A DNA stretch of 39,029 bases from Patescibacteria group bacterium (GTDB lineage: Bacteria > Patescibacteriota > Minisyncoccia > RBG-13-40-8-A). Made by a program: the position numbers and the translations under genes. The notes beneath the pieces were generated by a model, which made no database searches, was not told where the DNA came from, and saw only the letters and a program-made list of their open reading frames with translations. The stretch covers positions 1 to 39,029 of the forward strand of contig JAKJED010000006.1 in NCBI GenBank assembly GCA_022705575.1, read 5' to 3'. Shown here one piece after another: positions 20 through 39,029 of this stretch; the stretch's first letter is position 1; every line of letters begins with the position of its first letter.

Positions 20-712
20 CTATTCTAATACTAATTCTCTCATGCTACCTATTTCCATTTCTTTCAGCCACTTATTTATGCTTTGTTTATATTTTTCTTC
101 CCCGCCAAATATATCTAATAATAATTTCCTATCTGTTACTGAAGGAAAATTTTTGATATTCGAATAATCCATATGACTAGACCACCTATATTGATTTAAA
201 AAATTTATTGCCTTGTTATAATTATTTAATTTTCTCTCTCGCCATTCTGGAAATTCAAGATCCAATGGATTAAGATGAATATAATATGGAAGATTTAAGA
301 AGTGATTCGATTTGCTTACTAAAATTGCCTTATAGCGACTCTCAAAAAGAGTGCCCTTGCGTTTATGTTTTTGATTAAAATATTTCGCATAAGCCATATT
401 CAGTTTCTTCATAAATTTCGGAATCCCGTTTTCTGTTGAAGGACTCAATAATAAATGATAATGATTGGGCATTAGACAAAAAGCGTGAATATTCGCCAAT
501 AACTTTCTTAGTTCTCGTTTAATATGTGGACTTGCGATGTCCACATATTTATTCTGACTTTCAAATTTTTCAAGATTATAATGAGTCGTATAAACTACTT
601 TCTGATTATTAAGAACAAATAAATTATGAATAAACCTAAAATAATCTCCTTTATCAAGAAATATTTTCCGCTTGTCTACTCCTCTACTTAGTACATGATA
701 AATTTCACTCAT
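20..712 (-). CDS. REP-associated (IS200-like, Y1/HUH) tyrosine transposase
   Basis: Single-strand DNA transposase/nickase of the Y1 family (TnpA_REP type). The HUH motif is visible as MPNHYHLLL (His84 and His86) and the catalytic Tyr is expected in YIHLNP (about residue 143). FESRYKA is the usual conserved stretch between them. At 230 aa it has a normal length. I start at the Met of MSEIYHVLSRG rather than three codons upstream, because the second copy near 30 kb begins MAEIYHIL. The C-terminus is very similar to that copy (PSVTDRKLLLDIFGGEEKY shared). Residues about 55-64 are encoded by a perfect hairpin that recurs upstream of the gene. The 3' end is close to the window edge, so a left flanking hairpin cannot be seen. 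It appears intact. Confidence 0.9.
   Translation of the reverse strand: MSEIYHVLSRGVDKRKIFLDKGDYFRFIHNLFVLNNQKVVYTTHYNLEKFESQNKYVDIASPHIKRELRKLLANIHAFCLMPNHYHLLLSPSTENGIPKFMKKLNMAYAKYFNQKHKRKGTLFESRYKAILVSKSNHFLNLPYYIHLNPLDLEFPEWRERKLNNYNKAINFLNQYRWSSHMDYSNIKNFPSVTDRKLLLDIFGGEEKYKQSINKWLKEMEIGSMRELVLE
521..549. repeat. Hairpin inside the transposase coding sequence
   Basis: Perfect 11-bp inverted repeat (arms 521-531 and 539-549, core GTGGAC/GTCCAC) with a 7-nt loop TTGCGAT. It is translated in frame as roughly YVDIASPHI within the transposase, just before the HUH strand. The 19-nt core occurs again in inverted orientation at 745-763, between this gene and the upstream glycosyltransferase. 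Confidence 0.85.
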
Positions 713-744
713 ATTGTACATATTGTAAATTGTTAACTAAATTG

Positions 745-29417: not shown

Positions 29418-29469
29418 TTATATAACCCGAGGTCCGAGCAAAAACGCTACGGACCTTTTTGTTATATAA
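29418..29469 (+). terminator. Intrinsic terminator of the 52-aa ORF
   Basis: AGGTCCG (29430-29436) pairs with CGGACCT (29450-29456), followed by TTTTT. Outer arms TTATATAAC and GTTATATAA (29418-29426, 29461-29469) pair as well. Confidence 0.8.
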
Positions 29470-29479
29470 TTATAATTAT

Positions 29480-29510
29480 AAATATTTGGTCCTTGAAGGA
29501 CCAAATATTT
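29480..29510. repeat. Flanking REP-like hairpin of the second transposase, 3' side
   Basis: Perfect 31-nt palindrome around a central G: AAATATTTGGTCCTT-G-AAGGACC and on. It abuts the transposase stop codon. The same hairpin, inverted, is at 30218-30246, and its core is inside the gene at 30017-30029. Confidence 0.85.
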
Positions 29511-30197
29511 TTATTCTAAAATCAACTCTCTTATATCGCCTACTTCCATCTCTTTTAGCCATTTATTTATGCTCTGTTCGTATTTCTCTTCTCCACCGAA
29601 TATATCTAATAATAATTTTCTATCCGTAACTGACGGAAAATTCTTTTTACCACAATAATCTAAATGACTAGACCATCTATAATTATTCAAATACTCTATT
29701 GCGTTATTATAATTTTTTAACTTTCTTTCTCTCCATTCTGGAAATTTAATATCCAATGGATTTAAATGAACATAATACGGAAGATTAAGAAAATGATTAG
29801 ACTTGCTAATCAAAATTGATCTATAACGACCCTCAAAAATAGTTCCTTTACGATTATATTTTTTATTATAATATCGAACATAACCAGCGCCGAGTTTTTG
29901 CATAAATTTTATAATTCCTCCTTCTTTCATTTCACTTATTAGTAAATGATAATGGTTTGGCATCAAACAAAACGCATGAATATTAACTAATAATTTTCTC
30001 GGCTTTTAAAATTTTGGTCCTTCAAGGACGTAAGATTGATTTTTAATTTTTTGATTAAAATAATACGATAACGTATTAACAAGGCCTTCATTATTAAATT
30101 CAAATAAATCATGAATAAATCTAAAATAATCTTTATCATCTAAAAATATTTTTCTTTTATCCGTAGATCTATTCAAAATATGATAAATTTCTGCCAT
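29511..30197 (-). pseudogene. REP-associated tyrosine transposase interrupted by one in-frame stop
   Basis: Second Y1/HUH transposase, about 70% alike the first copy by eye. The reading frame is continuous from MAEIYHILNRSTDKRK (30197) to the end, except for one TAA at 30006-30008. The stop comes just after the internal hairpin (SYVLEGPKF-stop-KPRKLL), before HUH MPNHYHLLI and YVHLNP. Without readthrough the first product is 63 aa and lacks the active site; a restart at the TTG at 29966 would miss part of the fold. It may be a recent pseudogene or a sequencing error. It sits between the two halves of the ComEC system. Confidence 0.85.
30017..30029. repeat. Hairpin core inside the second transposase
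   Basis: GTCCTTCAAGGAC, the core of the flanking 31-nt palindrome, in frame in the coding sequence (peptide VLEG) at the position equivalent to the hairpin in the first transposase. Confidence 0.75.
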
Positions 30198-30208
30198 ATA
30201 TTATAATT

Positions 30209-31564
30209 CTAACTCATAATATTTGGTCCTTCAAGGACCAAATATTTATTTCTATTTTGATAACGACTATATAGGCCAATAATTCCAACCAATAAAATAT
30301 AATATCCAATTGCCCACAACCAATGCACGTTAGAAATTTGTTTTGACGCCCAAGGGATTTTGGCAAACCAATCAATAATACGCAAAACATAAGTTGTACC
30401 AAGGTATGCAGGCCACAATAAAATTTTTCCAATCCAAATAGAAATCATTGCTCCCCCAATAAAAATTATGCCGATAATTGTCAATAAGGTTATAAATGGA
30501 ACAATTAAAACATTAACAATTGGCGAAATAAAAGAAATTCTTCCAAAATTATAAATTAAAACCCCCAAAACCGCTATTTGCGCGGAAATTGTAGTGGTAA
30601 TAATCTGCAAAAAATTATTAATTTGCTCTTTTTTAAGAATCTTCTCTAAAATTCTGTCAAAAATCGGCTTGATATAAATTAATCCCAAAACCGCCAAAAA
30701 TGACAATTGAAATCCGATATCATATCTTAATAACAACGGATTAAATATAAGCATTATTGCGCCGGCAAAAACCATAATTCTGGTAATATTGCCAAGTCGT
30801 CCAATTTTTTTCGCGTAGAGCAGAATTATGCCCATAATACCGGCGCGCACTGCTGAAGCAGGCGCGCCGACCATGAAAATAAACGCAATAATCAGCATTA
30901 CCGTAATCCAAAATGCCTGCTTACGCCAAAATCCCAATCCAATTAAAAATATCATCACAATATTTGAAATGATTACAATATTCATTCCAGAAATCGCGGC
31001 AATATGACTAGTACCAGTAATACTTAAATTATTTTTAATTTCCTCGGAAAATATCTGTTTATTGCCTAAAATTATTCCCTCTAAAATTGATGCTTCGGGA
31101 AACGGCATAATTGTTTCAATTTTATCTGTAATTTTATTTTTAAATTTTAAAATAGCAGAAAATATTTTATTGCCTTGATTTTCATCTATTAGTTCAATTT
31201 TTGGATAATACATTACATAATAAATTTTATCTTTGGCTAAATATTGTTTGTAATTAAAATCTTCAAAAACAATTGGAAATTGTAATTTACCTTCAATCTT
31301 TAAAACATCTCCATAATTATATTTCGGATAATTTGGCGCAGTAATCAAAATTTTACCAGTATCGGTGTTTATCGTTATCTGCATACTGCTACTTTTAATA
31401 ATCGGTTCTTTAATAATTTTACCAAAAAGCTCCATATTCTTTTCAGAAAGAGGAGCTTGCCCCGCCATAGACAGGGTTCTTTTTTCTAATATTTTTGGTG
31501 AAACAAAAAATACCGTGATTATAAAAATCAAACAAATTATCAAAAATATGTTTGAAGTTTTCAT
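30209..31564 (-). CDS. comEC: ComEC/Rec2 membrane competence protein (channel part)
   Basis: DNA-uptake channel in the cytoplasmic membrane. 451 aa with an N-terminal membrane anchor, an OB-like extracellular domain (about 35-125) and the Competence domain with many hydrophobic helices. Motif GTSHIAAISGMNIVII and the GAPASAVRAGIMGII segment are diagnostic. The MBL domain is a separate ORF (28379-29233). The last residues KYLVLEGPNIMS are encoded by the flanking transposon hairpin, so the native C-terminus was probably replaced. TATAAT 6 bp before ATG suggests a leaderless message. Confidence 0.9.
   Translation of the reverse strand: MKTSNIFLIICLIFIITVFFVSPKILEKRTLSMAGQAPLSEKNMELFGKIIKEPIIKSSSMQITINTDTGKILITAPNYPKYNYGDVLKIEGKLQFPIVFEDFNYKQYLAKDKIYYVMYYPKIELIDENQGNKIFSAILKFKNKITDKIETIMPFPEASILEGIILGNKQIFSEEIKNNLSITGTSHIAAISGMNIVIISNIVMIFLIGLGFWRKQAFWITVMLIIAFIFMVGAPASAVRAGIMGIILLYAKKIGRLGNITRIMVFAGAIMLIFNPLLLRYDIGFQLSFLAVLGLIYIKPIFDRILEKILKKEQINNFLQIITTTISAQIAVLGVLIYNFGRISFISPIVNVLIVPFITLLTIIGIIFIGGAMISIWIGKILLWPAYLGTTYVLRIIDWFAKIPWASKQISNVHWLWAIGYYILLVGIIGLYSRYQNRNKYLVLEGPNIMS
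30218..30246. repeat. Flanking REP-like hairpin of the second transposase, 5' side
   Basis: Perfect 29-nt palindrome, core GGTCCTTCAAGGACC, inverted relative to 29480-29510. It overlaps the 3' end of comEC and is translated there as roughly KYLVLEGPN. Confidence 0.85.
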
Positions 31565-37277: not shown

Positions 37278-37730
37278 CTACGAAATTTTAAAAAAGGGGT
37301 AAAATTTTAATTCTTTTAAAATTTTATTCTGTTTTTTAAACATTTTATCTCTCATTTTTTTTGTTTCGTCATCATATCCCGCTAAATGCAGTATACCATG
37401 AAGCAATAATATTCCCAATTCTTCTTTCAGTAAGTGATTTAATTCTTTTGCTTGCTTTTTGGCTTGATTTAAACAAATAATAATTTCTCCCTGACCACCA
37501 AATTGAAGACCATAATCAAATGTTAAAACATCGGTCATATAATTATGTTTTTTATATTGCTTATTCAAAATAACCATTTTTTTTTCATCAACAATCGCTA
37601 CGCTTAATTCTGAAAATTTCTTTAAAATTTTCGTCTCAAACTTGTCGAAGGATAAAATTTTTTTTGCAAATTTCTCTAAAAACTTCAAATCAATCTTGTC
37701 TTTTGTTGAATTATTTATTTCAATTTTCAT
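37278..37730 (-). CDS. ybeY: Endoribonuclease YbeY (16S rRNA maturation) with altered metal ligand
   Basis: Metal-dependent RNase for 16S rRNA 3'-end processing and ribosome quality control. The family motif is visible as HGILHLAGYDD (residues 111-121): His111 and His115 are kept but the third ligand, normally His in GYDH, is Asp121. YMTDVLTFDYG is the other conserved part. 150 aa. I start at 37730, where ATG overlaps the TAA stop of the upstream Cys-rich gene (TAATG), so the two are translationally coupled. Upstream of ftsA. Confidence 0.92.
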   Translation of the reverse strand: MKIEINNSTKDKIDLKFLEKFAKKILSFDKFETKILKKFSELSVAIVDEKKMVILNKQYKKHNYMTDVLTFDYGLQFGGQGEIIICLNQAKKQAKELNHLLKEELGILLLHGILHLAGYDDETKKMRDKMFKKQNKILKELKFYPFFKIS

Positions 37731-38029
37731 TATTGTTCGCAATCTTGCGGACAAGTTATTTTTGTTTCCGCGCAAGGACAGCCAACCGCTGAACAAACAA
37801 TTTCTTGACAGGTTCCATCTCCGCATTTATCAACACAATTTCTTAACAATTCCGGACATTCAGCAAATTTACAATTTGGTCCAGTGCGTCCAACATATGA
37901 ACTATCGGGACATTGTTTCATCTCCATTGTGCACACTTTATTTTCAGCTTTATGATCAATAACAGCATACCAAATCCAGGACACAATAATTAATACCACC
38001 AATATTGCTAAAATAATTAATAATATTTT
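37711..38029. repeat. Direct repeat, copy 1 (period 1000 bp)
   Basis: Identical to 38711-39029 except 37903 T versus 38903 C. It begins inside ybeY (first 20 nt of that gene) and covers the Cys-rich gene. The second copy runs off the window. Confidence 0.95.
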
Positions 38030-38035
38030 TTTCAT
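37730..38035 (-). CDS. Small membrane-anchored Cys-rich protein, copy 1
   Basis: 101 aa. One N-terminal membrane segment (about residues 4-27, LLIILAILVVLIIVSWIWY) then an outside domain with 12 Cys in about 68 residues. Two submotifs: QCPDSSYVGRTGPNCKFAECP, and CGDGTCQE ... CPCAETKITCPQDC, the latter of the CGDGxC...CPxDC type seen in many secreted disulfide-rich repeats. I recognise the first submotif as recurrent in Patescibacteria proteins but know no function. Start overlaps the previous gene by ATGA and its stop overlaps the ybeY start. Confidence 0.75.
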   Translation of the reverse strand: MKKILLIILAILVVLIIVSWIWYAVIDHKAENKVCTMEMKQCPDSSYVGRTGPNCKFAECPELLRNCVDKCGDGTCQEIVCSAVGCPCAETKITCPQDCEQ

Positions 38036-38710: not shown

Positions 38711-39029
38711 TTATTTATTTCAATTTTCATTATTGTTCGCAATCTTGCGGACAAGTTATTTTTGTTTCCGCGCAAGGACAGCCAACCGCTGAACAAACAA
38801 TTTCTTGACAGGTTCCATCTCCGCATTTATCAACACAATTTCTTAACAATTCCGGACATTCAGCAAATTTACAATTTGGTCCAGTGCGTCCAACATATGA
38901 ACCATCGGGACATTGTTTCATCTCCATTGTGCACACTTTATTTTCAGCTTTATGATCAATAACAGCATACCAAATCCAGGACACAATAATTAATACCACC
39001 AATATTGCTAAAATAATTAATAATATTTT
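38711..39029. repeat. Direct repeat, copy 2 (truncated by window end)
   Basis: 319 bp identical to 37711-38029 with one difference (38903). It carries the first 20 nt of ybeY as a dead fragment followed by a second Cys-rich gene. Confidence 0.95.
38730..39029 (-). CDS. Small membrane-anchored Cys-rich protein, copy 2 (start beyond window)
   Basis: Second copy of the 101-aa protein, with Gly in place of Ser in QCPDGSYVGRTG. All 12 Cys are kept. The start codon would be at about 39035, six bases past the edge. No intact ybeY follows; only its first few codons do. Confidence 0.75.
   Translation of the reverse strand, partial: KILLIILAILVVLIIVSWIWYAVIDHKAENKVCTMEMKQCPDGSYVGRTGPNCKFAECPELLRNCVDKCGDGTCQEIVCSAVGCPCAETKITCPQDCEQ

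Follow-up and report, generated by a model that had tools for sequence, protein, structure and literature searches.

Transposase Genes and Palindromes in the Window

The window, which is the whole 39,029-nucleotide stretch of DNA from a Patescibacteria group bacterium that was analyzed here, contains two homologous genes for Y1 transposases, referred to as copy 1 and copy 2, together with palindromes situated upstream (U), inside (I) and downstream (D) of the genes. The relevant features are as follows.

20-721, minus strand: Y1 transposase gene copy 1, 233 amino acids, intact
368-427, minus strand: helix αB of copy 1 (predicted), residues 99-118, containing M109 and K113
521-549: internal palindrome of copy 1 (site A), GTGGACATCGCAAGTCCAC
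740-768: upstream palindrome (U) of copy 1, GTGGACATCGCAAGTCCAC
29480-29510: downstream palindrome (D) of copy 2, AAATATTTGGTCCTTGAAGGACCAAATATTT, directly 3' of the stop codon
29511-30197, minus strand: Y1 (HUH and Tyr) transposase gene copy 2, RAYT-like, with one in-frame TAA
29874-29888, minus strand: codons of copy 2 equivalent to copy 1 residues 109 (Ala) and 113 (Arg) in helix αB, which covary with palindrome pairs ±3 and ±4
30006-30008, minus strand: in-frame TAA of copy 2, lying three codons beyond its internal palindrome (position taken from the sequence)
30013-30033: internal palindrome of copy 2 (site A), with a perfect core at 30017-30029
30218-30246: upstream palindrome (U) of copy 2, AATATTTGGTCCTTCAAGGACCAAATATT, also within the 3' end of the adjacent comEC-like frame

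A first-pass annotation had placed a hairpin on both sides of copy 2 and its core inside the gene, and these coordinates (29480-29510, 30218-30246 and 30017-30029) proved to be right; the internal core is GTCCTTCAAGGAC (a 15-mer with one mismatch). One correction concerns the integrity of the gene, the reading frame of copy 2 being interrupted at 30006-30008. With this in-frame stop just beyond the internal palindrome, copy 2 is probably a decaying gene. For copy 1, no downstream palindrome was present in contig C39, the end of which overlaps the start of the window and in which this region was checked.

Three further observations were made in the window. The comEC-like frame at 30209-31564 ends in codons supplied by the U palindrome of copy 2 (YLVLEGPNIMS), and the C terminus of this gene has therefore probably been altered by the element. 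A separate terminator-like hairpin (aggtccg...cggacctttttg), in which GGTCC also occurs, lies just past the D palindrome at 29430-29460. Two near-identical short frames (MKKILLIILAILVVLIIVSWIWYAVIDHKAENKVC...) at 37730-38035 and 38730-39002, ∼1 kb apart, represent a recent duplication.

The proteins encoded by copies 1 and 2 are 69% identical, in agreement with the earlier estimate of about 70%. Their hairpins had been called unrelated; they are indeed different, but not entirely unrelated, since one scaffold is common to all of the palindromes, consisting mostly of T-A at ±10, G-C at ±6, A-T at ±5 and T-A at ±2. A third homologue in the same genome (copy 3, contig C44, 43% identical) has the palindrome TACGGAGGACWGTCCTCCGTA upstream, inside and downstream. 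The same palindrome is found in frame within two host genes of this genome (G000).

L228:1501-1521 (G000, contig C7): TACGGAGGACWGTCCTCCGTA within secA
L229:1501-1521 (G000, contig C18): TACGGAGGACWGTCCTCCGTA within ileS

In both genes it is translated as YGGQSSV, as it is in the copy 3 transposase gene itself, and at this point SecA and IleS are 5 and 2 residues longer, respectively, than their best relatives in the PDB. The palindromes can thus enter other genes. Palindromes of the copy 2 type also occur on contigs C36 (L278:855-869) and C18 (L010:1501), where the right-hand sequence is shared and the left-hand sequence is different. An IS481-like transposase gene (named by eye) is apparently split between C36 and C3 (L008:1501) at palindromes, which suggests rearrangement, or assembly joining, at these sites.

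Distribution and Position of the Internal Palindrome

The survey set comprised 182 non-redundant homologous genes across Patescibacteria, drawn from two sources. Apart from those used in the disjoint-pair tests described below, the genes are not phylogenetically independent, and most of the genomes are MAGs. An exact match of at least 15 nt between the interior of a gene and its own flank was found for 127 of the 182 genes, against 13 of 728 for the flanks of other loci; therefore, the internal palindrome is not a product of chance. The three-palindrome design is general: it recurs in homologues across Patescibacteria, with a palindrome particular to each of them. In another genus of the family, for example, a homologue carries ATGTAGGACATNNNATGTCCTACAT three times.

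Most internal copies in the exact-match set (113 of 127) were located at site A, just before the HUH motif and 45-105 nt ahead of the codon for its histidine, and 12 were located at a second site, site B, after the Tyr motif and 210-230 nt beyond the same histidine codon. Under relaxed criteria an internal copy was recognized in 143 of the 182 genes (128 at site A, 13 at site B and 2 elsewhere), leaving 39 with none. Copies were recognizable at both A and B in nine genes, with two complete ones in L147. A and B are thus two preferred sites, and the internal position, which had been called conserved, is not unique, since some genes use the second site or both.

In the AlphaFold model (mean pLDDT 89.7), site A falls within a low-confidence loop (residues 40-70, pLDDT ∼60). 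Each of the three reading frames is represented among the site A palindromes (78, 15 and 12 genes), from which it follows that the DNA is conserved rather than the peptide. Matches at site A were distributed bimodally, being either at least 14/17 or near background, with few intermediate stages of decay. A simple extra insertion in the loop was ruled out, as the A and B loops are no longer when a palindrome is present. Many of the 39 genes without a recognizable internal copy have clear flanking palindromes, and some of them hold diverged internal copies. Given that no internal copy could be detected in 39/182 genes, it is evidently losable or unneeded in some cases and not indispensable.

Palindrome Anatomy and Element Layout

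The center of the U palindrome lies 30 nt before the start codon (interquartile range 25-36) and that of the D palindrome 16 nt after the stop codon (12-23); both were present at 123 of the 142 loci with an internal copy. Position-wise identities for the I-U, I-D and U-D comparisons followed one curve, at approximately 0.9 or above out to ±10, except for 0.85 at ±7, falling to ∼0.45-0.7 at ±11 to ±14 and to background beyond ±14. The sequence logos of U, I and D agree (AANNTATCGAGGTCSGACCTCGATANNTT) and are near-identical in extent. The three palindromes are equivalent members of one set. Each has a single central base that flips freely, and at ±4 Watson-Crick pairs made up 96%, all four types occurring. 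No fixed orientation of the palindrome was found; orientation was random, that of the internal copy included, and U and D were inverted with respect to each other at 66 loci and in the same orientation at 56.

The transposase's own palindrome occurred at a density of 1.62/kb inside the gene, compared with 0.06/kb in neighboring DNA more than 130 nt from the gene ends. In a complete genome of 984 kb, U, I and D were the only occurrences of the L058 palindrome, and in a genome of 923 kb assembled as one contig the L214 pattern had just two occurrences, both in the element. In G000, 3 to 10 places per palindrome were found even with 2-3 mismatches allowed. None of the 27 readable control genes, which belong to other Y1 subfamilies of the same class, had a credible internal copy (0/27); L262, with a 20-nt match, was set aside because its frame seems to be extended into non-homologous upstream DNA. 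There was likewise no internal copy in Escherichia coli rayT.

Relationship to Known Transposase Families

Copy 1 matched PF01797 with 45.8 bits and the 3' part of copy 2 with 24.8 bits, against a gathering cut-off of 23. The HUH histidine is present in 181 of the 182 proteins, and Tyr-147 is invariant. In one gene (L016:1459-2169, genome G002) the HUH motif has been lost (PDYYC), and the internal and upstream palindromes are decayed yet still alike. A search of the PDB by sequence gave no match, whereas the fold search with Foldseek gave matches that include 2xm3 and 4er8. No confirmed relatives were found on viral contigs, and hits on plasmids were distant (<45% identity).

The RAYT/TnpA_REP proteins and their REPtrons (Nunvar 2010, PMC2817692; Quentin 2018, PMC6006769; Corneloup 2021, PMC8266576) resemble the present system in the Y1 HUH fold (4er8 being among the best matches), in the palindromes flanking the gene and in palindrome contacts, inferred here, through a conserved DNA-binding helix (α3 in TnpA_Ec). 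Of the marks of a RAYT, a palindrome on both sides of the gene was met (the 123/142 loci above; copy 1 has U only), but others were not. The score against the RAYT/TnpA_REP equivalog NF047646 (45.9 bits) was below the required 80; the GT[AG]G tetranucleotide stood at the hairpin foot in 22/528 cases, compared with 17 and 34 for control patterns; the flanking palindromes did not form a consistently inverted pair (66 against 56); and high-copy dispersed REPs or BIMEs were lacking, with only 3 and 2 places in the two single-contig genomes. The internal copy is a further difference. A classical REPtron was ruled out, as there is no GTAG.

By eye against the published table, and without a tree, the proteins resemble TnpA_Y1 subclass 2.1 (PMC6006769) in their NH[YF]H, Y[IV]HLNP and SS motifs and in a length of ∼238 amino acids. 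In that study no REP-like sequence was found in the vicinity of a subclass 2.1 gene, whereas palindromes are very common here, both outside and inside the genes. TIRYTs and TIRtrons (Di Nocera 2013, PMC3733652) are likewise tyrosine transposases with non-REP inverted-repeat flanks, some of them self-complementary, but their GGGGWSAS motif was absent here (0/528) and an internal copy is not described for them. The TnpA proteins of IS200/IS605 elements (IS608, ISDra2) share the catalytic fold (2xm3, 2vjv) and hairpin recognition; they differ in that the present protein is longer, has palindromes at both ends and inside its gene, and is not encoded by multiple near-identical copies, the three genes of the genome being only 43-69% alike. 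Rickettsia palindromic elements and intragenic REPs (PMC3733652) are comparable as in-frame palindromic DNA in host genes (here secA and ileS), but the palindrome described here matches a specific transposase and sits in the gene of that transposase. A transposase gene containing its own palindrome was unreported in the literature searched, which did not include the survey of domesticated transposases that Bertels and colleagues published in 2017.

Concerted Change of Internal and Flanking Palindromes

The first-pass annotation had proposed that a correlation between internal and flanking hairpins across homologues would support a coupled system. This comparison was strongly positive. Between-locus distances measured with the internal copies and with the flanks were correlated with r ∼0.94, and an internal copy differed from its own flank at ∼0.7 of 17 nt, compared with 5-8 of 17 nt from the flank of another locus at 50-80% protein identity. 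Among closely related loci, 14 disjoint pairs with proteins 70-81% identical had swapped palindromes. L159 and L160, which are 81% identical, differ from each other by two-arm changes that, small deviations aside, are the same at U, at B and at D. The suggestion of specificity switching or a coevolving internal tag is supported, specificity switching also from the protein side, where residues of helix αB change along with the palindromes, as described below.

Covariation of Helix αB with the Palindrome

The alignment columns best explaining palindrome differences, with the two loops excluded, were 113, 109, 112, 108, 127, 122, 129 and 105 (observed value 2.54; permutations reached at most 1.83). 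These columns lie on one face of the predicted helix αB (residues 99-118) and in the segment that follows the helix, and residues 105, 109, 112, 113 and 129 follow the palindrome base by base. Residue 113 was associated with pair ±4 (Asn with A in 34/42 cases, Met with G in 36/36, Lys with C in 25/30 and Gly with G in 13/13) and residue 109 with pair ±3 (Thr with G in 68/68). In 65 disjoint nearest-neighbor pairs, all 16 switches at ±4 were accompanied by a change at residue 113 (p = 4.8e-8) and 12 of 13 switches at ±3 by a change at residue 109 (p = 7.6e-7), values that hold after correction for ∼1900 tests. The exchange of Asn and Met with that of A and G occurred in seven separate pairs. 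Loop residues such as Ser-64 also score, trivially, because the palindrome encodes them.

The proteins of the window's genome fit this code, with residues 109/113 and pairs ±3/±4 corresponding as follows: M109/K113 with mismatch/C, A109/R113 with C/C and T109/G113 with G/G. On held-out genes without an internal copy the code was partly predictive (16/27 at ±4 and 18/27 at ±3, with Lys-113 and C in 13/14).

The conserved DNA-binding helix α3 of E. coli TnpA_REP, which includes Lys-82, contacts the REP hairpin (PMC8266576). In our reading, for which no superposition was computed, αB may be the equivalent of α3. Because residues of αB covary with it, the palindrome is, on sequence evidence alone, almost certainly the recognition site of the encoded protein, and the internal copy is retained in that capacity. 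Since the copies change together and with αB, the internal copy is almost certainly a site for binding of the protein and not a peptide motif.

Discussion

The system may be described as a RAYT-like Y1 module in which a putative recognition palindrome of ∼21-29 bp lies upstream, downstream and once, sometimes twice, in a hypervariable coding loop. By inference, the palindrome would have come into the gene as a mobile element of ∼21 bp (7 codons) that leaves the frame unchanged, as in secA and ileS, and would have been retained because a target located inside the gene serves a purpose in cis. Negative feedback would be the most likely purpose: by binding, and possibly nicking, the hairpin of its own gene, the protein would limit its own expression or activity; any change in specificity would then have to be matched at all copies, giving coordinated switching. 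This reading is favored because the site is retained when specificity switches, whatever its frame, orientation or loop, and because few stages of decay are seen. As a whole, without expression, binding or cleavage data, the explanation that a cognate palindrome is kept in the transposase gene for feedback in cis is put forward with no more than an even chance of being correct. That the gene must contain the palindrome that its protein reads, for feedback or self-targeting in cis, such that flanks, internal copy and αB are forced to switch together, remains tentative, with doubt slightly outweighing belief. Against feedback in cis, 39 of the 182 homologues lack a recognizable internal copy, autoregulation could already be provided by the U palindrome close to the start codon, the internal copy has no fixed orientation, and copy 2 of the window is interrupted; moreover, the concerted change could stem from copying (conversion) rather than from selection.

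Functionless copying by the transposase is a serious rival, albeit one that we consider rather unlikely. Here, the transposase would move the palindrome, with its own gene as the commonest victim and loops A and B as merely permissive sites, and transposase-driven hairpin exchange would keep all of the copies alike. The in-frame palindromes in secA and ileS are consistent with such insertion, and the changes in both arms of all copies of L159 and L160 at once are what copying would give; the freely flipping central base, and the location of sites A and B between conserved elements, point the same way. However, insertion is not rampant in the two single-contig genomes, which have no copies outside the element. 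The contrast between 0.06/kb beyond 130 nt and 1.62/kb in the gene, the scarcity of intermediate decay and the fact that sequence flanking the internal copy is not co-copied also weigh against it.

A different role for the internal palindrome, as a third end of the element, appears improbable. The U-I and I-D segments would then be separately excisable or mobile, and U-I excision would switch the gene off. There is one natural example of an I-D unit, L099/L170 (L099:1485-2031), where the stop codon of a neighboring gene, which we take from its C-terminal sequence to be glmS, is immediately followed by the internal palindrome, then by the transposase gene without its N-terminal third (the remaining two thirds being the C-terminal part) and by D. 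This was the only such case in 182 genes, it is also explained by simple U × I recombination, and distance correlations gave no signal of shuffling between N- and C-terminal parts. Cleavage at REP hairpins is nonetheless known for RAYTs (PMC8266576).

It is very doubtful that the protein carries the mRNA hairpin, or the corresponding DNA, as a self-encoded guide, with base pairing setting the target and a hairpin swap reprogramming specificity. The agreement of the internal hairpin with the flanks, and the swapped specificities of close proteins, would be accommodated by such a guide, but the tracking of bases by residues 105, 109, 112, 113 and 129 is expected of direct reading by protein and makes a nucleic acid guide unlikely, and the orientation is not fixed. 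Conservation of a loop peptide with the palindrome as by-product, for which similar peptides within one frame (EVGLP, EVQPQ) might be cited, can be discounted almost entirely, being contradicted by the unrelated peptides of the three site A frames (EVGLR, GRSPSSP, AKSDFAK), by the use of another site in the same family and by the occurrence of all four Watson-Crick pair types at ±4.

Whichever role the internal copy has, its presence raises the question of why a DNA-cutting enzyme would retain its own target within its own gene. Joint change in the specificity of REP palindromes and their transposases has been proposed before and is unresolved. As most of the genes carry the cognate site, protein and site can be paired unambiguously in more than 100 genes. 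On the evidence of these alignments, flanks, internal copy and DNA-reading helix change together when the palindrome changes, which appears to expose a readable recognition code, and this yields a residue-to-base code that can be tested at the bench, for example Asn-A, Met-G and Lys-C at residue 113 and Thr-G at residue 109.
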